A stretch of DNA of 64,000 nucleotides, from contig NZ_JALJWH010000001.1 in the NCBI RefSeq assembly GCF_024168825.1, positions 3,162,001 to 3,226,000 of the forward strand, read 5' to 3'. The DNA comes from Paenarthrobacter sp. A20. Its GTDB lineage: Bacteria; Actinomycetota; Actinomycetes; Actinomycetales; Micrococcaceae. Positions 21,773 through 50,182 of this stretch are shown here, one piece after another. The position numbers were made by a program, and so were the translations under genes. The notes beneath the pieces are model-generated. The model worked only from the letters and a program-made list of their open reading frames with translations. It was not told where the DNA came from and made no database searches. The first letter of the stretch is position 1, and each line of letters opens with the position of its first letter.

Positions 21773-21789
21773 TGTCTCGAATTGGCACG
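21773..21789. promoter_or_regulatory. 17-bp operator, site 1 (before hydroxyacid dehydrogenase)
   Basis: TGTCTCGAATTGGCACG, matching the consensus TGTCYCAA-N2-TGGNACA. Just upstream, 21751-21767 (GTGGGACACTGTCCCAC) holds two more half sites. It lies 108 bases before the first gene of cassette 2. Confidence 0.7.
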
Positions 21790-21896
21790 GATGAACCTTC
21801 ACATATCGCGTTGTACTTGAAATCACCCGGACACCAGCACCCTTCCAACGGGTGCTCGGCAGATGAAAAGGGTACTCAACGAACAGGACGACGACT

Positions 21897-22844
21897 ATGA
21901 CCCGCGATGCCCAGGGAACCATTCTTGTGGCCCCCCATCACTTTCCGAACCTTGACCGCGAGCACGCACTCGCAAAGGAGTTCGGTTACACACTCAACCC
22001 GGCGGCCGACGTCGAAGCCTTCCGTCAAGGCCTTCCCGAAGCCGACATCGTCATGATCACCCCCTACGCGAAACTCACAGCCGCGGACTTCCCGGTGATG
22101 TCCAAATGCAAGGCTGTCATCAGGTATGGCATTGGCTACGACAACATCGATGTTGACGCAGCCACTGCAGCGGACATTCCCGTGTCCATTGTCCCGGGCA
22201 CCGCTTCGGAGGAAGTGGCCTCGCACGCGTTCGCGATGGGGTTGGCATTGGCCCGCCGTCTGCCGGCAGGCAACGCCTCGATCCAGAACCTCGGTTGGGC
22301 CGGGACCATCGGCTACGACACCCCGGTTCTGTCCGAACTCGAGGTCGGGGTCCTGGGGATGGGCCGCATTGGTCAACACGTTGCCCGCATGTATCAAGCC
22401 GTCGGGGCACGGGTCCGGGCCTACGACCCGTTCGTGACTGAGAGCTTTGTGGAGCTGACCTCCTTGGACGACATCCTGGAAAACTCCGACGTCGTCTCGC
22501 TCCACCTGCCGCTGTCCGCGGATACCGCAAACCTGATCTCCAAGGACGTTCTGGCGCGCATGCGTAGGGGCGCAGTAGTGGTCAACGTATCCCGCGGCGG
22601 TCTCATTGAGGAATCAGCCCTTGCCGAGGCACTCACCTCGGGCCACATTGCAGGTGCTGGCATCGACACCTTTGCCGAAGAGCCGCTTGGGGCTGAGCAC
22701 CCGCTCCGCACAGCACCCAACACCATCCTGACGCCCCATATTGCCTGGCGTTCCAACCGCTCCACAGGTGCACTTCAGGAGGGCGCCGTTGAACGTGTCC
22801 GCTTGGCCCTGACCGGGCAGCCGCTCATCGACCTCGTGAACTGA
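21897..22844 (+). CDS. D-2-hydroxyacid dehydrogenase
   Basis: 315 residues. The Rossmann motif VLGMGRIGQ (near 157) is followed by the family's catalytic trio: Arg in VNVSRGGLI, Glu in FAEEP and His in TPHIAW. It should interconvert a 2-keto acid and a D-2-hydroxyacid with NAD(P)H in the cytoplasm. It is the first gene of cassette 2 and has the 17-bp operator upstream, with the aminotransferase 19 bases downstream. It could reduce or oxidise the 2-keto product of the pathway. C-terminal-binding-protein-like and phosphoglycerate-dehydrogenase-like members look alike, so the substrate is open. Confidence 0.88.
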   Translation: MTRDAQGTILVAPHHFPNLDREHALAKEFGYTLNPAADVEAFRQGLPEADIVMITPYAKLTAADFPVMSKCKAVIRYGIGYDNIDVDAATAADIPVSIVPGTASEEVASHAFAMGLALARRLPAGNASIQNLGWAGTIGYDTPVLSELEVGVLGMGRIGQHVARMYQAVGARVRAYDPFVTESFVELTSLDDILENSDVVSLHLPLSADTANLISKDVLARMRRGAVVVNVSRGGLIEESALAEALTSGHIAGAGIDTFAEEPLGAEHPLRTAPNTILTPHIAWRSNRSTGALQEGAVERVRLALTGQPLIDLVN

Positions 22845-22863
22845 AAAGACTGGAGAGAACCAA

Positions 22864-24153
22864 GTGGGAACAGAACACCAGAAAACCATCACACAAAGCC
22901 ACCCTTTGGAGGATCCACATCTGCGCAGGGGGCCTCGTGGATTCCCCTTGTTGCCTGGCGGTTACGGCCGCTCGACCTATTACACGGGAGCGCCGAGCCC
23001 GTACGCCATCCGGGGCGAGGGCTACCGGGTCTGGGATGACCGTGGTCATGAACTGATCGACGCGAACAACAACTTCACCTCCTTGATTCACGGGAACGCG
23101 CACCCTGAAATAACGGAGGCAGCGACCAAAGCGCTCACCGCCGGCGCCAGCTGGGGAATCCCCAACCTCTACGAGTGGGAACTGGCAGACCTCCTGCTTT
23201 CCCGCCTGCCTGAGCTCGACCAGGTACGGTTCGCCAACTCCGGCACCGAGGCCGTGATGTCCGCAATCCGCATCGCCCGGGCGAGCACCGGACGCGAACG
23301 AGTCATCGTCACCAAGGGCGGCTACCACGGAACATCCGACGTGGCATTGGTCCCGGGTGGCCCTGCCTACCAGCGTGGAGTAACCCGTGGCGTGATCAAC
23401 GATGTCACCGCGGTTCCCCTCAACGACGTCGATGTCCTGCGCCAGGAAGTTGAAGCAGCACCGGACTCCTACGCAGCCATCATTCTGGACCTGTTGCCCA
23501 ACAGAGCCGGCCTCCTCCGGATCTCCGAGGAGTTCGTGCACACCGCCAGGGACCTCGCGACCCGGTACGGGATCGTCCTGATCATCGACGAGGTCATCAG
23601 CCTGCGCCTGGGATTCAACGGCTTCAGCGGTGAATATGGTGTTTCCCCTGACTTGCTCACCACGGGCAAATTGATCGGTGGCGGCTTCCCTGTTGGCGCT
23701 GTTGCCGGCAAGGCTGAGCTGATGGCCGAGGTGGATCCGACCCGTCCCGGTAGCTTGCCCCATGGTGGAACTTTCTCCGGCAACCCGGTCAGTATGGCCG
23801 CGGGGTCGGTCGCCTTGCGCCTCTTCACTCAAGAGGAAGTAAAAAGGCTGAATCACCTGGGCGACACGACCCGGGACACAGTGAACGCGAAGATCGCCGA
23901 CGCCGGCTGGGAAGTGCGCGGCCGCGGCTCTCTGCTGCGCGCGGTTCCGGCGGGTGCGGAAAAAGTTGACGAGCAGACTCAGCACGAGCTGTGGTGGGCA
24001 TCTTACGAGCGCGGCTTGCTCGGTTCACCAGCAAACCTGCTGTCCTTGTCCACCCCTATGGACGAAAAGGTTGCGGGAGACATCGCTGACCGCTTGGCCG
24101 ACGCCGTGCTGGCCGTGGCAAACCAGAACCCGGCAACGGAAGGCGCGAAGTAA
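22864..24153 (+). CDS. Class III aminotransferase (GSAM-like), cassette 2
   Basis: 429 residues from a GTG with GGAGAGAACC upstream. It shows FANSGTEAVMSAIRIARAST, LIIDEVISLR and TTGKLIGGGFPVGAVAG, with the PLP lysine near residue 269. It is a paralogue of the enzyme at 17.4 kb; this copy is longer at the N-terminus. It lies between the hydroxyacid dehydrogenase and the FAH-family gene in what looks like a five-gene operon ending with the second HyuAB pair. The expected role is to remove an amino group freed by ring opening, giving an aldehyde or keto acid. Confidence 0.9.
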   Translation: MGTEHQKTITQSHPLEDPHLRRGPRGFPLLPGGYGRSTYYTGAPSPYAIRGEGYRVWDDRGHELIDANNNFTSLIHGNAHPEITEAATKALTAGASWGIPNLYEWELADLLLSRLPELDQVRFANSGTEAVMSAIRIARASTGRERVIVTKGGYHGTSDVALVPGGPAYQRGVTRGVINDVTAVPLNDVDVLRQEVEAAPDSYAAIILDLLPNRAGLLRISEEFVHTARDLATRYGIVLIIDEVISLRLGFNGFSGEYGVSPDLLTTGKLIGGGFPVGAVAGKAELMAEVDPTRPGSLPHGGTFSGNPVSMAAGSVALRLFTQEEVKRLNHLGDTTRDTVNAKIADAGWEVRGRGSLLRAVPAGAEKVDEQTQHELWWASYERGLLGSPANLLSLSTPMDEKVAGDIADRLADAVLAVANQNPATEGAK

Positions 24154-24155
24154 CC

Positions 24156-25055
24156 ATGAAGATTGTTTCCTACCACCACGAATCGGGCGTCCGCGGGGGA
24201 GTCCTCATCGACGATGCCGTCTATGACCTGGAGCTGCTCCTTCAAGGCTCCACAGAAGCCATCCACGGAGCCACGACTTCCGTCCGTGAGTTCCTGTCAC
24301 TCTACGGTGACCGGATCCCTGCCATTTCCTCCGGCATTACAGCACTTGCCTCCGAGGACCCCGTGGCCCGCGTCGGCGCATTGAACGAGGTCCGGTTGAC
24401 CACACCCATCACCGATCCGGCCAAGGTTCTGTGCATTGGACTCAATTACAAAGACCACGTTGCCGAAACCGGGCGTGCTTTCCCCGAATATCCGGACGTC
24501 TTCGCCAAATTCGCCTCCACCATGATTGGCCCCGAGGACGAGATCGGCGGCGCCCAGATCAGCAATAACCTCGATTTCGAAGGAGAAGTTGCCGTCATCA
24601 TAGGACGGCGGGCGGCTGAGGTCTCCGAGGACGAAGCCTTGGATTATGTCGCAGCCCTTGCGCCTCTCAACGATGTCACGGCACGCGATCTCCAGTACCG
24701 CGGGACCCAGTGGCTGGCTGGTAAGGCCGTGGACGGTTCAACCCCGTGGGGTCCCGCCATTGTCACGCTGGATGAAGTGGGAGACCCGCAAAAGCTGGAC
24801 ATCGCGACACGGGTCAATGGCATCGAAGTGCAGCGCTCGAATACCGAGCATCAGATCTTCTCCATAGCCCGCATCGTCTCCTACCTTTCGAGTTTCCTCA
24901 CTCTCGAACCAGGAGACGTGATCGCCACAGGCACACCACAAGGCATTGGTGCCAAGCGGAATCCTCCAGTCTGGCTTGAACCGGGCGACACGGTGGAAAT
25001 CGAGATCGACAAGGTGGGCCTGCTGCGTAACCGCGTCGGCAAGCCCCAGCTTTAA
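24156..25055 (+). CDS. Fumarylacetoacetate hydrolase (FAH) family protein
   Basis: 299 residues. The FAH motifs are present: IGLNYKDHVAET (near 92), the acidic metal ligands around NNLDFEGEVAVIIG (near 135) and IATGTPQGIG near the end. Members are Mg2+-dependent and hydrolyse acylpyruvates, decarboxylate or dehydrate 2-keto-3-deoxy sugar acids. It starts 2 bases after the aminotransferase stop. With the IlvD/Edd dehydratase at 36 kb it could form the second half of a non-phosphorylative sugar-acid route; that link is inference. Confidence 0.88.
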   Translation: MKIVSYHHESGVRGGVLIDDAVYDLELLLQGSTEAIHGATTSVREFLSLYGDRIPAISSGITALASEDPVARVGALNEVRLTTPITDPAKVLCIGLNYKDHVAETGRAFPEYPDVFAKFASTMIGPEDEIGGAQISNNLDFEGEVAVIIGRRAAEVSEDEALDYVAALAPLNDVTARDLQYRGTQWLAGKAVDGSTPWGPAIVTLDEVGDPQKLDIATRVNGIEVQRSNTEHQIFSIARIVSYLSSFLTLEPGDVIATGTPQGIGAKRNPPVWLEPGDTVEIEIDKVGLLRNRVGKPQL

Positions 25056-25079
25056 CCCCTCCAACTCTAAGAAAGTTAG

Positions 25080-27176
25080 ATGACCATGAGTGAAGTACAG
25101 ACACAACCAGGTGAAGCGAGGTACCGCATCGCCGTCGATACCGGTGGCACGTTTACGGACGTGGTGGTCGGCTCGAACACAGGCGACATGGCGGTCGGCA
25201 AGGCCCTAACCACCTATGACCGCGTTTTCACTGGCTTTGAAGCCTCAGTCCGCAGGGCTGCCGAGTCGGTTGGCTGGAGCGGCGATGACGTCCTGCGCAA
25301 TGCAGACGTGATTGTTTACGGCACAACGCACGCAACCAACGCAGTTCTCACCGGCAAGGTGGCCAAGACTGCTCTCTTGACCACTGACGGATTCGCCGAC
25401 ACCCTCCTGCTTCGCGAAGGCGGACGCCGGGATGCTTTTGACTCCAAAGCTGCCTACCCTCCGCCGTACATCCCGCGTCACTTGACCTTCGAAATCACGG
25501 AGCGGATTTCCGCCGAGGGTGATGTCCTGGTGCCGCTGGATGAAGCGAAAGTGCGCGAGGTGCTCGGCTCCTTCAAAGAACAGGGAATCGAGGCAGTGGC
25601 CGTTTCTTTCCTGTGGTCGATCATCAACGACGCCCACGAGAAGCGCGTGGCGGAACTCATCCAAGAGATCCTTCCCGATGTGCCGTACACGTTGTCCAAC
25701 GAGGCCAACCCAACAATTCGCGAATACCGCCGTTCCTCGGCCGCGTCGATTGATGCCTCGCTGAAACCGCTGATGGCGGACCACCTTGGCAAATTGCGCT
25801 CCGACCTCCAGGAGTACGGGTTTGGCGGTGACCTCTTGGTAGTGACCTCTGAAGGCGCCGTGCTCGACGTCGTAGATGTTCTGGACCGCCCGGTACTGTT
25901 GCTGAACTCCGGCCCCTCCATGGCACCACTGGTTGGTGCGGCCGCTGCTCCCGAGCGCGACACTGTGGTGGTCTGCGATATGGGCGGCACCACATTCGAC
26001 GTGTCCCTGGTTGAACAGGGCGTCGTTCGCCACACTAGGGAAGCCTGGCTGGGAGAGCCCTTTGTGGGCCACCTGACAGGTCTGTCTTCGGTGGCTGTTT
26101 CCAGCATTGGCGCCGGCGGTGGCAGCATCGCCTGGATCGACGGCGGCGGTCTGCTTCGGGTGGGTCCGCAAAGTGCCCGGAGTACTCCCGGACCGGCCGC
26201 GTATGGTCGCGGTGGCGAGGAACCCACCGTCACGGACGCTTGCGTAGCTTTGGGTTACCTCGACGCTGACGGATTTGAAGGCGGATTCACGCTGAACCGT
26301 GAGGCTGCCATCCGCGCCATCGATACCCGCATCGCTGGCCCCTTGAACATGGATACTTTGCAGGCTGCACAGGCCATTTTGGATGTATCCGCCAACCACA
26401 TGGCAACAGCAATCCGCCAAGCTTCCTTGGAACAGGGTGTTGACCCTCGAGGTGCCCTGATTGTGGCGGGCGGCGGTGCAGGTGCCATGGTGGCGGCCGC
26501 CATCGGCGTGCTCCTGGAAGCTGATACGGTCCTGATTCCCGCGACTGCGGGCGTGCTCGCTGCCTACGGCGCGCATCGCGCTCCGATTGCTACGGAATTT
26601 CTCTCGCCCTTGCACAACGACACCCGTAGCTTCGACGCTGGCTCCGCTTCGCGGGCCGTTGAGGAGCTAACGGGCAAGGCAGAGGTATTCGCCAAGAGGT
26701 TCGATGGTGTGGGCGCTGCTCCCAGCGTCACCTATTTTGTTGACGCCCGCTACCCGGGCCAGGCCTGGGACTTGCGTGTGTACTTGGACGCTGCGCCCGA
26801 TACCGCCAGTGATGCAGCGGGCATCGTTGAGCGTGCCTTCCACGAAGAGCACGATCGCCGCAACGGCACGCACGATCCGGACAGCCGCGTGGAGATCATC
26901 ACGTGGGGCGTCAGGGTCGAAATCCCGCGGCCTGAGCTGACCAAAGATCAAGCCGAAGTGGGCCGTGGGACTGAAGTCCACCGCACGGACTCCATTGTGT
27001 TCGGGGGCGAAAGTTTCAGCACCCAGCGATACCGCGGAGTCACCCTTGCCCCCCGGGACAAGATCGTTGGCCCTGCTGTCATCGACCAGCCCACAACCAC
27101 CATCGTGGTGCCACCGGAGTGGAACGCCACGCTCGACGAACGATCCAATATCTACCTCACCCGTAAGGAGGCGTAA
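25080..27176 (+). CDS. Hydantoinase/oxoprolinase A-type subunit (HyuA), cassette 2
   Basis: 698 residues. AVDTGGTFTDVVV (near 20) and CDMGGTTFDVSL (near 300) form the ASKHA phosphate-binding loops, and GAGGGSIAWIDGGGLLRVGP is typical of the family. It is a diverged second copy of the protein at 12.3 kb. It starts 24 bases after the FAH gene and is 2 bases from its B subunit. It should bind ATP and activate the amide carbonyl of a cyclic substrate. A second ATG (25086) is possible, with little effect. Confidence is high for the family and low for the substrate. Confidence 0.92.
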   Translation: MTMSEVQTQPGEARYRIAVDTGGTFTDVVVGSNTGDMAVGKALTTYDRVFTGFEASVRRAAESVGWSGDDVLRNADVIVYGTTHATNAVLTGKVAKTALLTTDGFADTLLLREGGRRDAFDSKAAYPPPYIPRHLTFEITERISAEGDVLVPLDEAKVREVLGSFKEQGIEAVAVSFLWSIINDAHEKRVAELIQEILPDVPYTLSNEANPTIREYRRSSAASIDASLKPLMADHLGKLRSDLQEYGFGGDLLVVTSEGAVLDVVDVLDRPVLLLNSGPSMAPLVGAAAAPERDTVVVCDMGGTTFDVSLVEQGVVRHTREAWLGEPFVGHLTGLSSVAVSSIGAGGGSIAWIDGGGLLRVGPQSARSTPGPAAYGRGGEEPTVTDACVALGYLDADGFEGGFTLNREAAIRAIDTRIAGPLNMDTLQAAQAILDVSANHMATAIRQASLEQGVDPRGALIVAGGGAGAMVAAAIGVLLEADTVLIPATAGVLAAYGAHRAPIATEFLSPLHNDTRSFDAGSASRAVEELTGKAEVFAKRFDGVGAAPSVTYFVDARYPGQAWDLRVYLDAAPDTASDAAGIVERAFHEEHDRRNGTHDPDSRVEIITWGVRVEIPRPELTKDQAEVGRGTEVHRTDSIVFGGESFSTQRYRGVTLAPRDKIVGPAVIDQPTTTIVVPPEWNATLDERSNIYLTRKEA

Positions 27177-27178
27177 CC

Positions 27179-28939
27179 ATGACGCGCGAATTCGATCCCG
27201 TAAAGCTCTCGGTCCTCGCTAATGCATTCGACGGCATTGTCCGCGAGATGACCAACGGCCTGCTGCGTTCCGCCCGTTCCTCTGTCATCAACACTGCCCG
27301 CGACTTTTCGTGTGCTGTTCTGACCGCTGATAACCAGCTGCTGGCAGCAGCAGAGGGCGTCCCGGTGCACGTCTTCGGTGCCGGACCGCTCGGCGAGGAC
27401 ATGGTGCAGCTGCACGACGACATCCGTGAAGGTGACGCATTCCTGCACAACGATCCCTACATGGGCAACTCGCATGCTGCCGACCATGTGATCCTCGTTC
27501 CGATCTTCGTCCATGGACGTCACCTCTTCACGGCCGTCACCAAGGCCCACCAGGCCGACTGCGGCAACTCGCTGCCAACCACCTTCTTCGCCACGGCACG
27601 GGATGTGTATGAAGAAGGTGCACTGATCTTCCCGTGTGTCCGTGTTCAGCGTGACCATAAGGACATCGACGACATCATCCGTATGTGCCGGTCCCGCATC
27701 CGTGTGCCTGACCAGTGGTACGGGGACTACCTGGCATCGGTCGGTGCGTCGCGCATCGCCGAACGCCGCATTCACGAGCTCGCCGAGAAGTTTGGTGTCG
27801 AAGACCTGGTGGACTTCGTGGATGCCTGGTTCGACTACTCGGAACGCCTCACCGCGACTGCGATCGAAACGCTGCCCGAGTACGTCCTCCATGGCTCCTC
27901 GGTCCACGATCCCTTCCCCGGAACCAGCGCGGACGGCGTGCACCTGCAGGCAACCGTTGAAGTGAAGCCCAAACAGGGCAAGATCGTCATTGACCTGCGT
28001 GACAACCCGGACAATCTCCCCAATGGCCTGAACCTCACAAAGGCCACGGCTACGGGTGCTGCCTTGGCCGGCATCCTCTCCGGCATCCCGGAGAACCTTC
28101 CGAGCAACGCGGGCACCTTCCGTCGAGTGGAAGTTCTGCTCCGGGACGGCTGCGCCGTCGGAGTTCCCAAACACCCGTACTCCTGCTCATCGGGCACCAC
28201 CAACCTCGCCGACCGGGTTGTCAACATCGTTCAAGCCGCGTTCTCCCAAATAGAGGACGGCTACGGCACGGCCGAGGGAGCGGCGGGACAGGCACCGGCA
28301 AAATCTGTCATCTCCGGTATAGACGAACGTAACGGCAACGCCTATGTCAACCAGATCCTTGTTGGCGGCGTCGGTGGACCAGCTACACCCTACGTTGACG
28401 GCTGGCCTACGTATCAGCGACCCGTCTGCGGCGCACTGCTTTACCACGACAGCGTCGAGGTAGATGAGCAGCGCTACCCCATCTTGGTTCACGAACGCAC
28501 CCTGGTTGCTGATACCGGGGGAGCAGGAAGGCAACGAGGTGGCCTCGCGACCCGTGTGACCATGGAACCCCGGGGTGAAAGCGTCACGCTGACGTACGGA
28601 ATCGAGGGCAAGATCAACCCGCCGAAGGGGGTCCGCGGCGGCCACGATGGTACCAAGCCGTCAACCTGGGTTGAGGATCTCACTACCGGTGAACGTCGCG
28701 AGATCCCCGTGGTGGGTCGCTACGATCTCCAGTCCGGCGAAAAGGTCGTATCCATCACCCCGGGAGGCGGTGGATACGGTGACCCGCTGGAACGTGACGT
28801 ACTCGCAGTCCTGGACGACTACCGCGAATCACGGATTTCCCTGGAAGCAGCAGCAGCACAATACGGAGTCATTATTACCGACGGCGGCATTGACGAAGCA
28901 GCAACGGCCAAGACGCGCGAATCGCGCCTGGCCAGCTAG
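27179..28939 (+). CDS. Hydantoinase/oxoprolinase B-type subunit (HyuB), cassette 2
   Basis: 586 residues with a strong ribosome binding site (AGGAGGCGTAACC). The sequence has VLANAFDGIVREMTNGLLRS, FLHNDPYMGNSHAADH (the NDP motif of HyuB proteins, near 98) and a C-terminal SITPGGGGYGDP. It completes the amidohydrolase with the A subunit two bases upstream. A hairpin follows 23 bases after the stop, closing the cassette 2 operon. The order dehydrogenase, aminotransferase, FAH, HyuA, HyuB differs from cassette 1, so the cassettes were probably assembled separately. Confidence 0.92.
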   Translation: MTREFDPVKLSVLANAFDGIVREMTNGLLRSARSSVINTARDFSCAVLTADNQLLAAAEGVPVHVFGAGPLGEDMVQLHDDIREGDAFLHNDPYMGNSHAADHVILVPIFVHGRHLFTAVTKAHQADCGNSLPTTFFATARDVYEEGALIFPCVRVQRDHKDIDDIIRMCRSRIRVPDQWYGDYLASVGASRIAERRIHELAEKFGVEDLVDFVDAWFDYSERLTATAIETLPEYVLHGSSVHDPFPGTSADGVHLQATVEVKPKQGKIVIDLRDNPDNLPNGLNLTKATATGAALAGILSGIPENLPSNAGTFRRVEVLLRDGCAVGVPKHPYSCSSGTTNLADRVVNIVQAAFSQIEDGYGTAEGAAGQAPAKSVISGIDERNGNAYVNQILVGGVGGPATPYVDGWPTYQRPVCGALLYHDSVEVDEQRYPILVHERTLVADTGGAGRQRGGLATRVTMEPRGESVTLTYGIEGKINPPKGVRGGHDGTKPSTWVEDLTTGERREIPVVGRYDLQSGEKVVSITPGGGGYGDPLERDVLAVLDDYRESRISLEAAAAQYGVIITDGGIDEAATAKTRESRLAS

Positions 28940-28961
28940 AAGTACCAGCCATAGCAACTGA

Positions 28962-28993
28962 TTCCGGGGCGGGGTATAGTCCTCGCCCCGGAA
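28962..28993 (+). terminator. Terminator of the cassette 2 operon
   Basis: TTCCGGGGCG at 28962-28971 pairs with CGCCCCGGAA at 28984-28993. No strong T-run follows. Confidence 0.65.
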
Positions 28994-29022
28994 GGTTTCA
29001 CCAACTACTGACGGAGAATCAC

Positions 29023-30254: not shown

Positions 30255-30271
30255 CGTATCAAAGTGGGACA
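30255..30271. promoter_or_regulatory. 17-bp operator, site 2 (before iolD)
   Basis: CGTATCAAAGTGGGACA. The right half is perfect, the left has two changes from TGTCYCAA. It lies 86 bases before iolD. Confidence 0.6.
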
Positions 30272-35011: not shown

Positions 35012-35109
35012 GAGCGCTCCTTAGTCTCTACCGCTGTCCCGCGGTGCTGTGCCGCAGACTGACGGCGGCATCTGTTGATCAGCCTAGGAACGTTGTCAGT
35101 GTGCTCTGT

Positions 35110-35126
35110 GTCTCAATGTGAGACAG
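35110..35126. promoter_or_regulatory. 17-bp operator, site 3 (divergent Gfo/SDR promoter)
   Basis: TGTCTCAATGTGAGACA is a perfect palindrome apart from the central base: TGTCTCA-ATG-TGAGACA. It lies between two divergent genes, so one site may serve both. An extra half site (AGTGGGACG) follows near 35151. Confidence 0.8.
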
Positions 35127-38893: not shown

Positions 38894-38910
38894 TGTCCCA
38901 AGCTGGTACA
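38894..38910. promoter_or_regulatory. 17-bp operator, site 4 (before APC permease 1)
   Basis: TGTCCCAAGCTGGTACA. A possible -10 element (TAGTGT) begins 22 bases downstream, the same distance as at the second permease gene. Confidence 0.78.
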
Positions 38911-41850: not shown

Positions 41851-41861
41851 GCAGCTGATTT

Positions 41862-41894: not shown

Positions 41895-41923
41895 AGTTAA
41901 GTAATTGAAACGTATCATTCTCG

Positions 41924-41940
41924 TGTTCCAAAGTGGCACA
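41924..41940. promoter_or_regulatory. 17-bp operator, site 5 (before the ABC importer)
   Basis: TGTTCCAAAGTGGCACA, a good match to TGTCYCAA-N2-TGGNACA. It lies 175 bases before the ABC ATPase start. Confidence 0.75.
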
Positions 41941-42115: not shown

Positions 42116-43000
42116 ATGACCGAAGCACCACCGGCGACCCCTCCACTGGTCGCCCTCAAGGACATACACAAGACATTCGGAGCAGTGTCCGCCTTGCGCG
42201 GCGTCAGCATCGATGTCCAGCCTGGCGAGACCTTCGCACTGCTGGGCGACAATGCCGCCGGCAAATCTACGCTCATGAAGGTACTGACGGGCGTGTATCA
42301 ACCAGACCGAGGTTCCATCGAACTGGACGGCAAAGCGACCGAGTTCCCAACCCCATCAGCTTCACGCGATCAGGGCGTGGAGATGGTCTACCAGGACTTC
42401 GCCTTGGCGGACAACCTTGATGTTCGTTCCAACATTTTCCTGGGCCGGGAGCCGCAGAAGAACATCCTCGGCCCCCTATTGCGGATCATCGACCGCAAAA
42501 AGATGGAACTCGAAACCAAACGGGTACTCGAACGCTTGGACATCCCCATCAATCCACGTCTCAAGGTCAAGAGATTGTCAGGCGGACAGCGTCAGGCCGT
42601 CGCCATTGGCAGGGCGTTGGCATTCGATGCCCGCTTGATCATCATGGATGAGCCCACGGCAAACCTGTCGGTGGCCAAGGTGGACAAGCTCATTGAAGTG
42701 ACCCAGCGCCTCAAAGATCTCGGCATCGCCGTCATCATCATCACTCACCGGCTGGATGAGGCATTTGCCGTGGCAGATCGTTTCGCGGTGATGCGCCAAG
42801 GCCAAGTAGTGGGTCGCTTCCGGGTTGGTGAGGTTACTGAAGCACAGGTGGCACACCTCATCTCCCACGGCACGTTGGATGACTACATCGACGACGGCGC
42901 CGGCATCCCCGACAACCGCCGCAAGATCGGAAGCACCTCATCGATGGACGTCGTTGATGTGATGGCCGCTCCTGGCACTACGAATGCGAGCCACTCATGA
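42116..43000 (+). CDS. Ribose-type ABC importer, ATPase
   Basis: 294 residues and one ABC domain, not the double domain of RbsA. Walker A GDNAAGKSTLMK (near 47), signature LSGGQRQAVAIGRAL, Walker B RLIIMDEPTANL and the H-loop VIIITHRLDE are all present. ATG 42116 has GAGGA just upstream; in-frame starts at 42071 and 42092 are weaker. It drives uptake with the permease that overlaps its stop (ATGA) and the binding protein. Single-domain ATPases of this group occur in importers of sugars, cyclitols and autoinducers. The operon has the 17-bp operator upstream, so the substrate may be the inducer's parent compound. Confidence 0.92.
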   Translation: MTEAPPATPPLVALKDIHKTFGAVSALRGVSIDVQPGETFALLGDNAAGKSTLMKVLTGVYQPDRGSIELDGKATEFPTPSASRDQGVEMVYQDFALADNLDVRSNIFLGREPQKNILGPLLRIIDRKKMELETKRVLERLDIPINPRLKVKRLSGGQRQAVAIGRALAFDARLIIMDEPTANLSVAKVDKLIEVTQRLKDLGIAVIIITHRLDEAFAVADRFAVMRQGQVVGRFRVGEVTEAQVAHLISHGTLDDYIDDGAGIPDNRRKIGSTSSMDVVDVMAAPGTTNASHS

Positions 43001-43995
43001 GTCTCACCATGGAAAATATCAAGACAAAGCTCGGACCCGCTGACCTTAAAGAGGGAATGACTGCCACCAAGGTCAAGCGCTTCATTGGTGACTATGGGAT
43101 CATCATCCTTTTCGTGGTAATCCTTATCTTCCTCGCGGCTGCTGCGCCAAACTTCCTGACCCTGAACAACATCGTCAACGTGGTCCGGCAGTCGTCCATC
43201 ATAGGACTGATTGCCCTAGGGATGACGTTCATTATGATCACCGCCGGCATTGACCTTTCTGTCGGTTCAATTGTGGGTTTGGCCGGTATGACTTTCGCCT
43301 TGCTGGCCCCGGCAAGTGGTGGTGCCTTCTGGTTGCCGCTGGTTGCAGGCCTCGCAGTAGGCCTGCTGGTTGGATTCCTGAGCGCAGCGTTGGTGGTCTG
43401 GGGAGCCATCCTGCCGTTCCTGGCAACACTGGCAACCATGGCCATTGCCCGCACGGCAGTTCTGGTCATGACGGACGGGCAGGTTGTTTCCGGGCTGAGC
43501 GGACCTGCTGAATGGCTCGGGTCGGGTTTCATCGGTCCGGTTCCTGTCCCGGTGATTATTTTCTTGATCGCCGCAGTTATCTGTGAGTTTGTCCTCAGCC
43601 GCACCAAATTCGGTTCGCATGTATATGCCGTAGGCGGCAACGAAGAGTCCGCCAAGAAAGTGGGCATCTCCACCAGCCGGGTGCTCTTCACCGTTTACCT
43701 CATCGGTGGCGTGACAGCCGCGCTGGGCGGACTGGTTCTTACCGCCCGTCTCGACGGGGCTGCGCCCGTAGCTGGCACCGGCTACGAACTTCAGGTGATT
43801 GCCGCTGTCGTCATTGGAGGAACGAGTCTCTTCGGTGGCGTAGGCACCATCCGCGGAACGGTCATCGGTGTCCTCCTGCTGGGCGTGGTCATGAATGGCA
43901 TGAACCTGATGGGGGTCTCGTCGTACTACCAGCAAGGAGTTCAAGGCATCATCCTGGTGCTCGCCGTGCTGCTGAACCGGTGGAAGTCTGACTAG
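42997..43995 (+). CDS. Ribose-type ABC importer, permease
   Basis: 332 residues with about 8-10 membrane helices. MITAGIDLSVGSIVGLAGMT is the hallmark of RbsC-type permeases, and NGMNLMGVSSYYQQGVQG near the end is also conserved. The first 25 residues are cytoplasmic. It overlaps the ATPase gene by 4 bases, so the two are co-translated, and it precedes the binding-protein gene. A homodimer of this subunit would form the channel. Confidence 0.93.
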   Translation: MSLTMENIKTKLGPADLKEGMTATKVKRFIGDYGIIILFVVILIFLAAAAPNFLTLNNIVNVVRQSSIIGLIALGMTFIMITAGIDLSVGSIVGLAGMTFALLAPASGGAFWLPLVAGLAVGLLVGFLSAALVVWGAILPFLATLATMAIARTAVLVMTDGQVVSGLSGPAEWLGSGFIGPVPVPVIIFLIAAVICEFVLSRTKFGSHVYAVGGNEESAKKVGISTSRVLFTVYLIGGVTAALGGLVLTARLDGAAPVAGTGYELQVIAAVVIGGTSLFGGVGTIRGTVIGVLLLGVVMNGMNLMGVSSYYQQGVQGIILVLAVLLNRWKSD

Positions 43996-44084
43996 CCACT
44001 GCAGTAACCGAAATGCCCCGAACCCAATGGGGTCCACAGAACCAACAATCTCCTCAGCAATCAGAACCATTGAAAGGAACCATC

Positions 44085-45053
44085 ATGGGAATGCGACAGA
44101 AGCTCGCCGTAACCACCGCTATGCTGGCCGCTGGAGCCCTCACACTCACCGGCTGCGGGGGGAGTAGTACCCCCGGCACGTCGGAGGCTGCAGGCAAGTC
44201 CTACAACATTGGCGTTGTGGTTCTTGACCTTCAGGACCCGGACCTGGCGCACATGACGGACGCCATGAAGAAGACTGCCGATGAAAAGGGCGTCAAGCTC
44301 AACATCACCGACTCCAAGAAGGACGTAGGAAGTGAGCTCAACCAGGTTGAAGATCTTCTCACCCGTCAGGTAGACGCCGTCATCATGCAGCCTTTGGATG
44401 GCGAGGCCAGCCAGAACGCAGCGAAGCGTGTCATCGCGGCCAACATACCGCTGTTCATTCTGTCCACCGAGTTCGCCGAAGGTTCGGACGTTGGATATAA
44501 GAGCTACATCGGTGTGGATGACACCGTGGCCGGTGAAATGCAGGCTGAGTACCTGAACAAGGCTCTTCCGGAGGGTGGCAACATTGTGTTCGCCGCGGGC
44601 ATCTACGGTGCCTCCTGGACCGATCGCCGCAAGAACGGCTTCGACAGCAAGATCAACAAGAACTTCAAGATCGTGGCTGAATTCCAGGCGAAGGGAAGCC
44701 GTGACGACGCCAAACGCAACATGGAAGACACGCTTCAGCGCTTTAGCGCCGGCCAGATCGACGCCGTAGTGGCCAACAATGACGAAATGGCCATCGGTGC
44801 AGCCTCCGCTATTGCTGACGCGGGACGAACTGCCGAGTTCAAGGCCGTAGTCGGCGTCGACGGTACTGAACCAGCCATGCAGGACATCAAAGCCGGGACA
44901 ATGTCGGCTACCGTCCGACAGGACTCTGCTGGACAGGGCGTCAAGGCAGTTGAAGTTGTCACTGACTTCCTCAAGGGCGGCAATGTGGAGAACCGCTACA
45001 CGCTGCCATTCACGCTCATTACCAAGGACAACCTTTCCGAGTTCTTGAAGTAA
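44085..45053 (+). CDS. Ribose-type ABC importer, substrate-binding lipoprotein
   Basis: About 322 residues. The start GMRQKLAVTTAMLAAGALTL is a signal peptide, and LTGC is the lipobox, so the mature protein begins at the Cys and is anchored on the outer face of the membrane. The mature part is the type 1 periplasmic binding fold (IGVVVLDLQDPDLAHMTDAM, then DAVIMQPLDGEASQNAAKRV and VVANNDEMAIGAASAI), closest to RbsB-type proteins. ATG 44085 has AAAGGAACC upstream. A strong terminator follows, so this is the end of the ABC operon. The ligand cannot be told from the sequence. Confidence 0.93.
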   Translation: MGMRQKLAVTTAMLAAGALTLTGCGGSSTPGTSEAAGKSYNIGVVVLDLQDPDLAHMTDAMKKTADEKGVKLNITDSKKDVGSELNQVEDLLTRQVDAVIMQPLDGEASQNAAKRVIAANIPLFILSTEFAEGSDVGYKSYIGVDDTVAGEMQAEYLNKALPEGGNIVFAAGIYGASWTDRRKNGFDSKINKNFKIVAEFQAKGSRDDAKRNMEDTLQRFSAGQIDAVVANNDEMAIGAASAIADAGRTAEFKAVVGVDGTEPAMQDIKAGTMSATVRQDSAGQGVKAVEVVTDFLKGGNVENRYTLPFTLITKDNLSEFLK

Positions 45054-45071
45054 GCAGCGAGATCAGTCAAG

Positions 45072-45101
45072 CGGGCACAGCGGGTTTATCCGCTGTGCCC
45101 G
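45072..45101 (+). terminator. Terminator of the ABC operon
   Basis: CGGGCACAGCGG (45072-45083) pairs perfectly with CCGCTGTGCCCG (45090-45101) around GTTTAT, followed by TTCTGTTTT. Confidence 0.9.
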
Positions 45102-45178
45102 TTCTGTTTTGGCACAATCCAGGGCATACCGCGGCTGCTTACACTTCTTCCCGAAACCTACGAATGGAGAACGCAACC

Positions 45179-48118
45179 ATGCCCCATGGTGACAACGGCG
45201 ACACGGCTCTGAGGCAGTTGCTCGCCCGGTTGGAGCATCACGGCGTCGAGGTGGACGACTCTTCGCGAAGGCTGTCTGAGTACTCCTACGATGCATCGAA
45301 TTATCGGGTAAGACCCGCCGCCGTGGCTTTCCCCAAAAGTGTCGATGACGTACGAACAGTCGTGCGCCTATGTTCGGCATTGGCAGTGCCGATGACGACG
45401 CGCGGCGGGGGTACCTCGATGGCAGGGAACGCCATCGGCGACGGTTTGGTGATGGATCTCTCCCGCCGCATGAATGCGGTAGGGGCTCTCGACGCCGAAG
45501 ATAGAACAGTCTGGGCCGACGCTGGGGTTGTCCTCGGTGAGCTGCGCGCCCACGTTGAAAAGGCCACGACGGGGACGCTGACATTCGCACCGGATCCTTC
45601 CTCCCTGACCCGGGCCACCATCGGTGGTTCCATCGGCAATGACGCCTGCGGAAATCACTCCGTGGCCTATGGGCGCATGACGCATCATGTGCGGGAGGTG
45701 GATCTTGTCACTGCTGACGGCGCTTACCTGAGGGCCGGGCGTGGTTTTCTCCGCGCTGTTGACGAATCAGACACCCATTCCGTTGCTCGTGCGCTGGAGC
45801 TTACCGAGGGCCTGGAGGCTTTGGCCGCAAAGAACATGGCCAGGCTACGCGTTGAACTTCAGACCATTCCCAGGCAGGTTTCCGGGTACCACGTGGGCCA
45901 TCTGCTGCCGGAACACGGATTCGATGTGGCCGCCGCATTGGCAGGCAGCGAAGGTACGTGCGCTGTCATCGTGCGGGCAAAGGTGGGCCTCGTGCCGAAG
46001 CCCGTCACCACCGCACTGCTCTGCCTGGGATATCGCGACACCATTGATTCTGCCCGTGACGTGATGACCATTTTGTCCGCCAAGCCGAGCGCCATCGAGG
46101 GGCTGGATGTTTCGATCGTGGACATCATGAGGCACCGGCGAGGAGCGGCCAGCGTTGAGTCGTTGCCTGGGGGGAGTGCCTTCCTCATGGTGGAGTTTTC
46201 GGCCGACACTTTGCAGCTGGCCGACACTTCCTGTCAGGAACTGGCCGACAAGCTCGGCGCGAACGGGCGCGTTGTTGATTTCAGGATCGTCACTGACCCT
46301 GTTGAGCGAGGAAAGCTGTGGCGGGTACGTGAAGACGGCGCCGGACTCTCGTCGCTGCGGATCGACGGAGTTCAAACGTGGCCGGGCTGGGAAGATTCTG
46401 CTGTGGCCCCTGAACGGCTTGCCGACTACTTGGCGGACCTTCTTCCACTGGTGAAAAGGTACGGCTACACCGCCCTCATGTACGGCCACTTTGGAGCGGG
46501 GTGTGTGCACATGCGGTTGGACTACGACCTCCGCAGCGACTCCGGACGTAAGGTCTTCAGTGACTTCACCCATGACGCGGCTGACCTGGTGGTGACCCAT
46601 GGTGGCTCGCTGTCCGGCGAGCATGGTGACGGCAGGGCACGCAGCGAATTGCTGGAAGTCATGTATTCCCGGGAGATGATCGGCATCTTCAGGTCCTTCA
46701 AACACCTCTGGGATCCGGCACAAATCCTCAACCCCGGGATCATCGTTCATCCAGTTCCCTTCGCTGCCTCGCTGGCCTTGGAAGGTGTCGTCAAGCCTGG
46801 ACCCACTCACGGTGGGCTGACCGCAGACCCGGGTGCCGCCGTCGTGCTTTCCTCTGGAAATCGCGAACTGCTGAAGGTCTCCAGTCCATTTGTGGGTAAC
46901 TCCCACGCCTGTATCGGAGTGGGCAGATGCCGTTCCACCAGCGGCGGGTTTATGTGCCCCAGTTATCGGGCCACGAAGGATGAAAAGGATTCGACCCGTG
47001 GCCGTGCGCGGGTGCTGCAGGAACTGACCCGGGCAAACGGCAGCAGCAAGGATGGCTGGTCAAGCCCGGAAGTCCGGGAGGCCCTGGACCTTTGCCTCTC
47101 TTGCAAAGCCTGCTCCACGGATTGCCCCACAGGTGTAGACATTGCCGAGGCAAAATCAGAATTGGTCGATGAGTACTATCGTGGGCGGATCCGGCCGTTC
47201 ACGCATTACTCCATTGGGTGGCTGCCGCGGTGGCTTCCGTTGCTGACGCGGGTGGCGCCACTGGCCAACCTGGGAGCATCATTCCGGCCGTTCAGGCTTG
47301 CGGGGGAGTGGCTGGGCATCAGTGCCCGACGACGACTCCCGGCTTTTGCGGCGAACGGCAGGATCCGGAAGCGGCTGCGGGAAGCAAAATTTGCGGACAA
47401 TGCCGACATCCTGGTGTTCATCGACAGCTTTACCCGCGCCTTTAGGCCCGAGGTGGTTCCGGCTGCTGCCCGCGTGCTCCGTGACACAGGCAAATCTGTA
47501 GGCTGTACGCCGGACGCCTGCTGCGGTCTGACGTGGATCTCCACCGGGCAGCGCGAAGGGGCCCGACGGCGGTTGGCTCAGTTAATCAGCAAGCTCGACG
47601 ACGGCACGGACCGGGACATTGTTGTCCTTGAACCCAGTTGCGCTGCCACCATCCGGGACGAAGGTCCGAAACTGGTAGGAGGCGACGCTGCTGCGAGGGT
47701 CGCGGCCAGAGTTCGATCCTTCGCCGTCGCCGTGGACGAGGCCGTTACGCGAGGATGGAAACCGAAGGCCCTGCCGCCCGAATCAGCAGTATTGCAAACG
47801 CACTGCCACGAGCATGCCGTGTTCGGTTCGGGCGCCCAGAAACGGGTCCTGGAAGCCTGGGGAGTTTCCAACCTGGTGGAATCGTCCTCGTGCTGTGGTG
47901 TGGCCGGCAACTTCGGTTTCGAGGCAGAGCACTTTGACGTGTCGATGAAAGTTGCGGAGCACTCGATCATTCCATCAATTGGTCAGGCTGATGATGGTGC
48001 ACTCGTACTTACGGACGGTTTCAGTTGTGCCATGCAGGTCTCGCAGGTGGACCCTGAATACACCAGCAAGCATCTGGCCGTGGCGCTGGATCCGTATAGC
48101 GCCCGATGGGCGGACTGA
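45179..48118 (+). CDS. FAD/Fe-S D-lactate-dehydrogenase-like oxidase
   Basis: 979 residues, a fusion of two modules. The N-terminal ~550 residues are a GlcD/Ydl-type flavin domain (TTRGGGTSMAGNAIGDG near 67, GGSIGNDACGNHSVAYGRMT near 149). The C-terminal half has ferredoxin-like Cys in SHACIGVGRCRSTSGGFMC (near 580) and CLSCKACSTDCPTG (near 639), and two CCG-type motifs (CCGLTWISTGQ near 780, SCCGVAGNFG near 904). Such proteins oxidise a D-2-hydroxyacid and pass electrons to the quinone pool. The paired hydroxyacid dehydrogenases here suggest it oxidises a pathway hydroxyacid. ATG 45179 has GGAGA at the right distance. No membrane helix is visible. Confidence 0.9.
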   Translation: MPHGDNGDTALRQLLARLEHHGVEVDDSSRRLSEYSYDASNYRVRPAAVAFPKSVDDVRTVVRLCSALAVPMTTRGGGTSMAGNAIGDGLVMDLSRRMNAVGALDAEDRTVWADAGVVLGELRAHVEKATTGTLTFAPDPSSLTRATIGGSIGNDACGNHSVAYGRMTHHVREVDLVTADGAYLRAGRGFLRAVDESDTHSVARALELTEGLEALAAKNMARLRVELQTIPRQVSGYHVGHLLPEHGFDVAAALAGSEGTCAVIVRAKVGLVPKPVTTALLCLGYRDTIDSARDVMTILSAKPSAIEGLDVSIVDIMRHRRGAASVESLPGGSAFLMVEFSADTLQLADTSCQELADKLGANGRVVDFRIVTDPVERGKLWRVREDGAGLSSLRIDGVQTWPGWEDSAVAPERLADYLADLLPLVKRYGYTALMYGHFGAGCVHMRLDYDLRSDSGRKVFSDFTHDAADLVVTHGGSLSGEHGDGRARSELLEVMYSREMIGIFRSFKHLWDPAQILNPGIIVHPVPFAASLALEGVVKPGPTHGGLTADPGAAVVLSSGNRELLKVSSPFVGNSHACIGVGRCRSTSGGFMCPSYRATKDEKDSTRGRARVLQELTRANGSSKDGWSSPEVREALDLCLSCKACSTDCPTGVDIAEAKSELVDEYYRGRIRPFTHYSIGWLPRWLPLLTRVAPLANLGASFRPFRLAGEWLGISARRRLPAFAANGRIRKRLREAKFADNADILVFIDSFTRAFRPEVVPAAARVLRDTGKSVGCTPDACCGLTWISTGQREGARRRLAQLISKLDDGTDRDIVVLEPSCAATIRDEGPKLVGGDAAARVAARVRSFAVAVDEAVTRGWKPKALPPESAVLQTHCHEHAVFGSGAQKRVLEAWGVSNLVESSSCCGVAGNFGFEAEHFDVSMKVAEHSIIPSIGQADDGALVLTDGFSCAMQVSQVDPEYTSKHLAVALDPYSARWAD

Positions 48119-48316
48119 ATGGAGTACTTTGGGGTCTTCCTGGTTCTAGTGGCTGCCGGGTTGCGTTTGGTTGGCGACCACTTGGCCAAGCCTGGCCCGC
48201 AGCCCCGGGCTACAGCAACAATGCGAGGTGTCCACAGCGTCCCGCCTCGTGCAGCGGCGCTTCTGATTGCTGCGTCCGGGATCTTCATCTTTGTTGTCAG
48301 TATCAGTTCGCGTTGA
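48119..48316 (+). CDS. Small two-helix membrane protein
   Basis: 65 residues, directly abutting the stop of the preceding gene (TGA then ATG). It has two hydrophobic segments (YFGVFLVLVAAGLRLV, residues 3-18, and ALLIAASGIFIFVVSIS, about 47-63). It may anchor the neighbouring FAD/Fe-S enzyme at the membrane, which otherwise has no visible helix; that is inference. No family is recognised. Confidence 0.5.
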   Translation: MEYFGVFLVLVAAGLRLVGDHLAKPGPQPRATATMRGVHSVPPRAAALLIAASGIFIFVVSISSR

Positions 48317-48338
48317 GTCCGGGAATTCTAGTGTGCGG

Positions 48339-48355
48339 TGTCTCAAACTGACACG
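48339..48355. promoter_or_regulatory. 17-bp operator, site 6
   Basis: TGTCTCAAACTGACACG. It lies just after the small membrane-protein ORF and 73 bases before the 65-residue ORF at 48431. Confidence 0.68.
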
Positions 48356-48427
48356 GATGGAAAGGTCTGCAGGAACCCAAACTGGAATTGACCAAAAGGC
48401 ACAACTAATTCTTAAGGGTTGATCCCG

Positions 48428-48625
48428 ATGATGAACAGGAAGCTCGCACAAGGACGCCACGTTGAGTGGCTGCGAACCTCACCTCACTCCAGTGAGACGG
48501 ATTCCGGAGAGCGCAGCGACCATGCACTAAAGCGGTCTGGCAGAACTGTACATCGACTCCTTCAGGAAATGTCGGAGGGCCGCGATACGAGTGATGCGTG
48601 GCCGTGGCCGATTCGGGGCATCTAG
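48428..48625 (+). CDS. Small hypothetical protein under operator site 6
   Basis: About 65 residues (ATG 48428 or 48431; MNRKLAQGRHVEWLRTSPHS...). AAGGG at 48414-48418 is 9 bases upstream. It is basic at the N-terminus and has RTVHRLLQEMSEGRDTSDAW near the end, then WPWP. A hairpin terminator follows 18 bases after the stop, so it could be a leader or small regulatory protein for the transcript. No family is recognised. Confidence 0.45.
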   Translation: MMNRKLAQGRHVEWLRTSPHSSETDSGERSDHALKRSGRTVHRLLQEMSEGRDTSDAWPWPIRGI

Positions 48626-48642
48626 ACCCTCCAAGCTGCGGT

Positions 48643-48682
48643 CCGTAGCGCTTGTTCCTGGCACTGTGTTCAAGCGCTACGG
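48643..48682 (+). terminator. Terminator after the small ORF
   Basis: CCGTAGCGCTTG (48643-48654, extended by GGT upstream) pairs with CAAGCGCTACGG (48671-48682), followed by CCCGCTTTCTTTCC. Confidence 0.75.
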
Positions 48683-48720
48683 CCCGCTTTCTTTCCTTTC
48701 GCAGGAGAACTGAGGGCGTC

Positions 48721-49401
48721 GTGAGTCTCCAAGATTTGGCTTTCATTGCCTGTGAACCTGGAAAGCTGCTGGTGGAGATACTGGCGCCGGCTGTTCCTGG
48801 TCCATACGTAGAAGCATTCATGGAGGCCGTCCAGTCTCTTGAATCAGTCGCAATCAATGGTTTTAAGAAGATGAAAGATGGCGTCCTTCTCGACTACGAC
48901 GAGCGTTCCATAGGTGCGAAGGACCTCGAGGCTTTCCTAGCGGCTGCCTATTCAACGGTCACCTATGACCATGGCGAGCATCGTCCATCAACGCACATCT
49001 TGCCGATCACGTTTGGAGGTCCGGCGGGACCGGATCTGGCTGTGGCAGGCGTCCTTTTAGGTACGTCGGAAAGCACCCTGATCAGGCGGATCTGCCGAAG
49101 TAGACACACTGTGAGAATGTTCTCGGAGCCCGGGGCGTCTGCGCTCCTCGAATTGCCGTGGTCGGACAGTGGCCTCCAAACACTTCAGGCGAGCAGATCC
49201 AAACGGGCTGTGCCTCCAGGGTCGCTGACCCTATCTGGTGCGGGCCTGACCATTGCCAGCCGCGCAGCCTATTCAGACGAACTTATCATCGGACGGGTGA
49301 CCGAGAGATCGGTCGGAACTGCCGCGCTCCTGCGAATGGGCGATCATATATGGCTGAGAAAACGGTTGGGTTCTCCCTCTGGGCTAACGAGTGTTCGTTA
49401 G
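48721..49401 (+). CDS. PxpB/KipI-like (allophanate hydrolase subunit 1 domain) protein
   Basis: About 226 residues from GTG 48721; a TTG at 48652 is in frame but reads through the terminator hairpin. The C-terminal half (SKRAVPPGSLTLSGAGLTIA, then SDELIIGRVTERS) follows the conserved PxpB/KipI pattern of a Pro-rich loop, VPPGS, a Gly-Ala-Gly and a final IGR. PxpB normally works with PxpC and PxpA as 5-oxoprolinase. Neither partner is in the window, so it may work alone, regulate, or act with HyuAB. The end overlaps the second TetR operator. Confidence 0.68.
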   Translation: MSLQDLAFIACEPGKLLVEILAPAVPGPYVEAFMEAVQSLESVAINGFKKMKDGVLLDYDERSIGAKDLEAFLAAAYSTVTYDHGEHRPSTHILPITFGGPAGPDLAVAGVLLGTSESTLIRRICRSRHTVRMFSEPGASALLELPWSDSGLQTLQASRSKRAVPPGSLTLSGAGLTIASRAAYSDELIIGRVTERSVGTAALLRMGDHIWLRKRLGSPSGLTSVR

Positions 49402-49402
49402 C
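49383..49402. promoter_or_regulatory. Probable TetR operator, copy 2
   Basis: GCTAACGAgtgtTCGTTAGC, a perfect 8-4-8 palindrome. It lies across the end of the PxpB-like gene and 40 bases before the TetR 2 start. TACACT just after it could be a -10 box, so binding would block this promoter. Confidence 0.85.
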
Positions 49403-49442
49403 TACACTGGAGTCATCACTGTCGATCAACGGGGTGGGTGAT

Positions 49443-50108
49443 GTGAGCGAGTCGCCGCGACTGCAAGCTAACGCCGCTGTCAGAAAATTCCTGTCAGGGC
49501 GTGATTGGTCAACGCAGACTCCGACCCGGCGCCGAATCGTGGCAGGCTTCCTGCAACTCTCTGCGACCCGCGGTTTTGAGTCAGTCAGCCTGCGCACCTT
49601 AGCCAGGGAGGTCGGTATGCAAGCACCCAGCATCTACTCGAGCTTTCCGGGGGGAAAAGACGAGATCGTGGCGGAGTCGCTCCGGTGGTTTACACATGCC
49701 TTTGCTTATGACCTTCTGGCCGGAGCCGAGAAAGCGACGTCTGCCGAAGAGTACTGGGCTGCGCTTGTCCAAGGCCACCTGGCTCAGCAACTGCAAAGAC
49801 CCGAACCGAATATATGGGACCTCCTGATCGCTACGGATAAGGTGGCACGCTTTCTAAAGGACGAGGTCCGCGCAGAGGCCGACCTTTGGACCAGTCTCCA
49901 CCAAGACATGTACATTGCCGCAGCCGATGAGATGGGGCTCAAGCTCTCGGCCTCTACCGTCCAACAGATACTCACTTTGCTTGATGGTGTTGGTCGATGG
50001 GCCGATCGGAGCGGCGGGGACCAGGAACTTTCTCTACTGACTGACCGGGCCGTGGCACTGACCCTTTCCATCCTCGAGATCAACGCCGAAATCCGAAGTG
50101 CCGTCTAA
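49443..50108 (+). CDS. TetR-family repressor 2
   Basis: About 221 residues from GTG 49443, matching the length of TetR 1 at 19.4 kb. The helix-turn-helix is RRRIVAGFLQLSATRGFESV, then REVGMQAPSIYSSFPGGKDE (about residues 27-75), followed by a ligand domain with shared NIWDLLIATDK (NLWDLLVATDR in TetR 1). The longer in-frame start upstream would overlap the PxpB-like gene and lacks support. The perfect operator before it suggests autorepression, and the copy at 19.5 kb suggests that it or its paralogue also acts on the GAF/Fis regulator gene. Confidence 0.88.
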   Translation: MSESPRLQANAAVRKFLSGRDWSTQTPTRRRIVAGFLQLSATRGFESVSLRTLAREVGMQAPSIYSSFPGGKDEIVAESLRWFTHAFAYDLLAGAEKATSAEEYWAALVQGHLAQQLQRPEPNIWDLLIATDKVARFLKDEVRAEADLWTSLHQDMYIAAADEMGLKLSASTVQQILTLLDGVGRWADRSGGDQELSLLTDRAVALTLSILEINAEIRSAV

Positions 50109-50165
50109 CTCCACATGCGGCAATAGTGCGGCCTGCTCGGTCTCGCTGGGGCATCCACTGGAAGG

Positions 50166-50182
50166 TGTCCCAAGGTGGCACA
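50166..50182. promoter_or_regulatory. 17-bp operator, site 7 (before APC permease 2)
   Basis: TGTCCCAAGGTGGCACA, the best match to the consensus together with site 4. A possible -10 (TACTGT) begins 22 bases downstream. Confidence 0.82.

Follow-up and report, generated by a model that had tools for sequence, protein, structure and literature searches.

A recurrent palindrome as the probable operator of a DhaR-like Fis-type regulator in a catabolic gene cluster of Paenarthrobacter sp. A20

A nutrient-degradation cluster of ~30 kb in Paenarthrobacter sp. A20 contains seven copies of a 17-bp palindrome facing eight promoters, one copy (site 3) being counted twice, and raises the question of which protein reads these sites and to what effect. 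The cluster lies in a 64,000-nucleotide stretch (contig NZ_JALJWH010000001.1, positions 3,162,001 to 3,226,000), which as a whole is called the window here and is numbered from its first letter. We consider it likely that the neighboring Fis-type regulator uses the palindrome as its operator, and that this protein is a DhaR-like, sigma-54-independent activator of the cluster. A preliminary description of the same DNA had already proposed that one regulator, this Fis-type protein, reads the sites; four comparative lines now support that proposal, and binding is predicted. The regulon so defined comprises ~20 genes, whose predicted operons are listed in Table 1.

The palindrome was originally written as TGTCYCAA-N2-TGGNACA. 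All seven places exist, but this string is too narrow: it is matched exactly only at 38894 and 50166, with one mismatch at 35109 (the actual start of site 3, formerly given as 35110) and 41924, and with two at 21773, 30255 and 48339. Counted at up to two mismatches on both strands, it gave 11 matches against 0.82 expected, and none of 100 shuffles reached 11. The half-site symmetry is better captured by the improved consensus TGTNYCANNNTGRNACA, i.e. TGTNYCA-N3-TGRNACA, hereafter the strict form. The operator form TGT-N11-ACA is complete at four of the seven sites, the other three differing by one end base. Genome-wide counts were made as pattern searches with a reversed-motif control. The strict form occurs four times in the 5.38-Mb genome, each time inside the cluster, and the control gave none, so the genome-wide count proposed earlier confines this form to the cluster. 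With one mismatch allowed, the whole genome has 15 places, six of them in the cluster, against six in the control; the nine outside are at about background level. At up to two mismatches the window alone has 16 places, of which nine are other than the seven sites. Site 1, with its two mismatches, is therefore supported by conservation instead: its conserved form, TGTNYCGNNNTGGNACG, stands upstream of the 2-hydroxyacid dehydrogenase gene in all 16 clusters mapped below, the window counted. The position of the sites in gaps before operons held for all seven, which are wholly intergenic by a simple gene caller that leaves 12.5% of 21000-51800 intergenic and overlooks the 65-aa open reading frame (ORF) and the CT_C_D gene. 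The IclR-controlled cassette was likewise free of sites, as first described, with none at up to one mismatch in the window. Autoregulation through the motif was also looked for, and in the window no site at up to one mismatch precedes the regulator gene; in the Brevibacterium cluster L070, a strict site lies ~370 bp upstream of the regulator gene.

At its C-terminus the regulator matches HTH_8 (PF02954; Pfam E 4.8e-10, 39.4 bits against a cut-off of 22), and AAA_lid_14 is matched as well (Pfam E 3.3e-10). The GAFTGA loop is missing from the protein in alignment, though the AAA+ domain is present. Of the earlier label "GAF/Fis protein", the Fis-type helix-turn-helix is thus matched, and a GAF domain is undetected by Pfam; in the predicted model, however, the N-terminal half is similar to that of DhaR. 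Sigma-54 itself (PF04552) is unmatched in the Paenarthrobacter genome at E ≤ 1e-3, a profile that does find matches in 4 of 14 control genomes.

We compared the cluster across a set of 59 genomes that includes its own, taking E ≤ 1e-30 as the orthologue threshold. The regulator has an orthologue in three of them (its own, G023, and G004, which has two clusters), and all three contain a multi-site cluster over the same operons; this co-occurrence is one reason for assigning the palindrome to the regulator. Scattered strict sites, one to four each, occur in 12 of the other 56 genomes. A scan of further genome contigs yielded 19 loci, of which 17 have an orthologue (57-89% identity). G004 accounts for two of these 17, and two weak Hyphomonadaceae loci (30-32%) stand outside the counts. 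All 15 further orthologue genomes contain strict sites (one to six each, 56 in total against 3 in the reversed control), which is a second reason for the assignment. By coordinates, 50 of these 56 sites fall in the cluster stretch, and the six elsewhere belong to G064 and G069 (one each), G065 (two) and G072 (two, beside other Fis-type genes). Genes and sites were then mapped in 16 clusters, the window among them, with G059, G062 and G070 left out. They come from six genera (Arthrobacter, Leucobacter, Pseudolysinimonas, Brevibacterium, Nocardia and Amycolatopsis) and differ in gene order. The comparison of orthologous clusters suggested in the preliminary description found sites before the same kinds of operons throughout: before IolD, as in the window, in the Gfo2-SDR or Gfo2-IlvD gap, and before the APC permeases, the ABC importer and the 65-aa ORF. 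Operon by operon, some clusters have operons without a site. Four sites at up to one mismatch were flagged in called genes (L024, L065, L078 and L081), the first three near the 3' end of a neighboring gene. As a control, relatives of Gfo2 at 48-53% identity in eight genomes without the regulator had no motif match at up to one mismatch in 78 kb; the control covers eight places in this identity range, 14 further relatives at 36-38% having been left out.

The same mapping bears on the possibility that another regulator of the window, TetR1, TetR2 or IclR, binds the palindromes. TetR and IclR proteins bind short palindromes as well, TetR1 is divergent from the Fis-type gene, and sites 6 and 7 flank TetR2. 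However, in the fetched stretches TetR1 is present in only 10 of the 16 clusters, TetR2 in 8 and IclR in 3, and six clusters have neither TetR, whereas sites are present in 16 of 16. The palindrome is also found near other operons that have a Fis-type regulator of their own. We therefore regard binding by one of these three proteins as very unlikely, and the persistence of the sites where TetR1, TetR2 and IclR do not persist is a third reason for assigning them to the Fis-type regulator.

The fourth reason is that the palindrome also stands near other Fis-type regulators. PF02954 was matched at 24 places in the 59 genomes at E ≤ 1e-6. Of 38 strict motif places in these genomes, 29 have a strong Fis gene within 50 kb and 14 have one within 5 kb; 12 of the 29 belong to other Fis-type genes. 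Twenty further Fis-type loci were examined, consisting of 19 strong places (the regulator and its G004 paralogue excluded) and a weak paralogue in the Paenarthrobacter genome, with regulators of 490-616 aa. A site at up to one mismatch is present in 15 of the 20, in 12 of these within the gap that adjoins the regulator gene, and loci L121-L139 gave 19 palindrome matches against none in the reversed control. Class-wide, 148 genomes gave 29 Fis genes, and 5 of 23 motif places (the Paenarthrobacter genome excluded) are no more than 3 kb away from one of them, a proximity with P of ~3e-14 by a rough binomial estimate that assumes 700 Mb searched.

What the regulator would do at these sites is indicated by promoter geometry. 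The shared spacing was first spotted by eye and tested afterwards. A -10-like hexamer begins exactly 22 nt past the palindrome at all eight window promoters, each hexamer matching at least two of the three positions T1-A2-T6, with a sum of 19 of 24; the best sum in 20,000 shuffles, taken as the maximum over offsets, was 16. In 75 oriented sites of eight target classes, the target-weighted score reached 2.24 of 3 at gap 22, the second-highest value being 1.30 and the mean 0.66. These 75 sites were kept from 108 rows at ≥57% identity to a window protein; they include neither G023 nor one duplicate stretch, and sites 1 and 6 have no class among the eight. At position 27, 95% of the sites have T, and positions 19 and 20 are often T (61%) and G (77%), which resembles an extended -10. 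A -35 element was not apparent, TTGACA at a spacer of 17 giving 1.11 matches against a background of 1.44. If the hexamer is placed at -12 to -7, the palindrome would occupy about -51 to -35, centered at about -43 from the predicted start. By sequence, this is the layout of a class II activator, with an operator that abuts the -35 region, a fixed distance to the -10 and no -35 hexamer. The fixed 22-nt gap, its presence on both sides of the Gfo2/SDR site and the missing -35 together argue for an activator that replaces the -35.

The same position could suit repression, with the regulator masking the -35 region until an inducer frees it, since the palindrome sits where a -35 would begin and a protein centered near -43 could block polymerase. 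Such a protein, however, needs neither a spacing of exactly 22 nt at all eight promoters nor a missing -35, and Fis-type AAA+ regulators are mostly activators. We consider a repressor unlikely and infer activation instead. Still less probable, to the point of being hardly credible, is that the palindromes are RNA hairpins, terminators or ends of mobile elements. Their 7-bp inverted repeats with a 3-nt loop could form short hairpins, but their distance upstream of the predicted -10 is constant, their positions 2, 3, 6, 7, 11, 12 and 15-17 are 96-100% fixed while the center is variable, and they accompany a regulator across genera.

Several observations weigh against the assignment to a Fis-type activator. 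The clusters were mostly retrieved by way of the regulator, which makes its presence in them a given; independent evidence comes instead from the motif-first searches. A regulator-free cluster with HyuB2, which would act as a clean control, was not found among the 59 genomes, where relatives of HyuB2 (E ≤ 1e-100) are confined to the three regulator-bearing ones. Seventeen of the 29 motif places near a Fis gene belong to the clusters of the regulator itself (one beside the paralogue inside a cluster), and 9 of the 38 have no strong Fis gene within 50 kb. Five of the 20 further Fis-type loci (L127, L128, L129, L131 and L140) are without a site at up to one mismatch, no Fis gene being called in L128. 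Loss of GAFTGA does not track the motif, as it is also lost in relatives without palindromes. The -10 assignments are sequence resemblance only, and L121-L139 have a mean score of 0.75 at gap 22 and their best, 1.19, at gap 32. Among distant plasmid homologues, for which 12 of 135 matching records were examined, one is a true orthologue (L141) and the other 11 have 24-33% identity; 9 of these 11 loci have no site at up to one mismatch, the exceptions being a Rhizobium leguminosarum locus (L142, 32.5%) with six sites and RHA1 (L143) with one.

Two extensions were accordingly rejected: the 22-nt gap as a rule for all Fis-type loci, by the L121-L139 scores, and the palindrome code for distant plasmid homologues, by the 9 of 11 loci without a site. 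By eye, promoters of enzyme genes in L124 (9989) and L125 (4111 and 8785, + direction) fit the 22-nt gap. The R. leguminosarum locus lies on a plasmid of another phylum (L142, 5857-15419). Its regulator also has no GAFTGA, some of its six palindromes are near APC permease, aminotransferase and aldehyde dehydrogenase genes, and the hexamer at gap 22 is good at only one of the six. In the Paenarthrobacter genome, the paralogous Fis-type regulator (L140) adjoins amidohydrolase, FeS-assembly-P and ADH genes, and its palindrome variant at 6729-6746 has a 4-base spacer, TGTCTCA-N4-TGAGACA.

In the mechanism we propose for the Fis-type activator, a dimer of its C-terminal helix-turn-helix would bind TGTNYCA-N3-TGRNACA, while an inducer, presumably the substrate of the cluster or an intermediate, would occupy the putative N-terminal sensory half. 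The inducer-bound regulator would then recruit a sigma-70-type RNA polymerase from ~43 bp upstream of the start, substituting for the absent -35. Eight cluster promoters would be switched on together, the single Gfo2/SDR site serving both divergent promoters. As to the substrate, IolD and IolG score above their NCBIfam cut-offs, with 748.6 and 356.9 bits; below cut-off, HyuA2/HyuB2 resemble caprolactamase, and FAAH resembles 2,4-diketo-3-deoxyrhamnonate hydrolase. The substrate could plausibly be cyclitol- or sugar-acid-like and contain an amide or amine, and a simple reporter could identify the inducer.

Further elements accompany the sites. Just upstream of site 1 lies an everted half-site pair, both halves of which are present in seven of the nine Arthrobacter-type loci of the alignment, and which is a possible accessory or second operator. 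The 65-aa ORF after site 6 has no Pfam match and was found in 7 of 14 loci searched, all Arthrobacter-type, at 67-97% identity. The CT_C_D gene that follows has a good match in G023 and is poorly conserved in other clusters.

Table 1. Palindromes, predicted operons and neighboring features in the window, with mismatches to TGTNYCA-N3-TGRNACA and the -10-like hexamer at gap 22.
Feature	Position	Strand	Sequence	Genes or description	Mismatches	Hexamer
Site 1	21773-21789	+	TGTCTCGAATTGGCACG	2-hydroxyacid dehydrogenase/aminotransferase/FAAH/HyuA/HyuB/Gfo	2	TGTACT
Site 2	30255-30271	+	CGTATCAAAGTGGGACA	iolD-aldehyde dehydrogenase	1	AAACCT
Site 3	35109-35125	.	TGTCTCAATGTGAGACA	divergent Gfo2 (-) and SDR-IlvD-2HADH2 (+)	0	TAGGCT (-), TTTAGT (+)
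Site 4	38894-38910	+	TGTCCCAAGCTGGTACA	APC permease 1-Gfo3 (IolG)	0	TAGTGT
Site 5	41924-41940	+	TGTTCCAAAGTGGCACA	ABC sugar-type importer and D-2-hydroxyglutarate-dehydrogenase-like gene	0	CAAAGT
Site 6	48339-48355	+	TGTCTCAAACTGACACG	65-aa ORF, CT_C_D gene, TetR gene	1	CAAACT
Site 7	50166-50182	+	TGTCCCAAGGTGGCACA	APC permease 2	0	TACTGT
Regulator gene	19868-21670	+		600 aa: putative sensory N-terminal half, AAA+ domain without GAFTGA loop, Fis-type helix-turn-helix
Everted half-site pair	21752-21766	.	TGGGACA-C-TGTCCCA	just upstream of site 1
65-aa ORF	48428-48625			after site 6
CT_C_D domain gene	48721-49401			5-oxoprolinase/KipI-type, between site 6 and TetR gene
IclR	11497-12267
TetR1	18768-19427			divergent from regulator gene
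TetR2	49440-50108			between sites 6 and 7

Variation among the relatives is also of note. In L027, L064 and L080 (genomes G004, G061 and G071), a second Fis-type regulator, 34-35% identical, is inserted between the aldehyde dehydrogenase (ALDH) gene and Gfo2, accompanied by FMO-type, SDR, ALDH and APC genes and by palindromes of its own. Unlike in the window, a palindrome stands near the IclR/HyuAB cassette in two relatives (L049, 7039-7055; L026, 10228-10244) and may tie the cassette to the regulon there. A 1.0-Mb plasmid of Arthrobacter sp. StoSoilB13 (L141) carries a regulator orthologue (83%) with four palindromes nearby at up to one mismatch, one of them strict, which suggests that the cluster can travel on plasmids.

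Among known systems, the operator class is shared with Fis-type sigma-54 enhancer-binding proteins. According to PMC6615313, 15 groups of Clostridiales Fis-type activators use TGT/ACA inverted repeats 10-12 bp apart, mostly 100-250 bp upstream of sigma-54 promoters. The Clostridiales proteins, like NifA and FhlA, have in common with the regulator the helix-turn-helix family PF02954 and the operator class, here TGT-N11-ACA; they differ in that the sites described here lie 22 nt from a -10-like hexamer, sigma-54 was not found in the genome, and the regulator has no GAFTGA loop. The operator class TGT-N10-12-ACA is therefore already known, and the present case is set apart by the proximal, fixed location of its sites without sigma-54. 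Among the matches listed in an open-access literature search, we recognized no paper giving this operator for actinobacterial regulators, and databases often label such proteins 'sigma-54-dependent' or 'acetoin/glycerol' even though sigma-54 was not found here. We suggest tentatively, at somewhat less than an even chance, that Actinobacteria, having no sigma-54, turned enhancer-binding proteins into class II activators of the ordinary polymerase, keeping TGT-N11-ACA and moving it from 100-250 bp upstream to abut and replace the -35. If this is true, TGTNYCA-N3-TGRNACA would be a lineage-wide code by which many uncharacterized Fis-type regulators could be paired with their target operons from sequence alone; in any case, the analysis gives a group of actinobacterial regulators an operator and a promoter layout that can be tested.

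The AcoR-like regulators of actinobacterial alkane monooxygenase clusters, such as that of Mycolicibacterium chubuense NBB4, are of the same general protein type. The role of the AcoR-like regulator of an actinobacterial monooxygenase cluster is given as lacking experimental confirmation in PMC8784404. As a difference, no palindrome at up to one mismatch is present at the hmo regulator locus of NBB4 (L147, 26.8% identity). Another close counterpart is E. coli DhaR, the activator of the dihydroxyacetone kinase operon, which works with sigma-70. DhaR (NF008485) is the best NCBIfam match of the regulator, at 82.6 bits over residues 463-593, far under the equivalog cut-off of 551 bits. The two also differ in that the regulator would control a many-operon cluster, in which the genes scanned included no dihydroxyacetone kinase. 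They share the Fis-type helix-turn-helix, DhaR is without GAFTGA according to PMC3162934, and the predicted N-terminal half of the regulator matches the DhaR(N) crystal structures 4lrx, 4lry and 4lrz.

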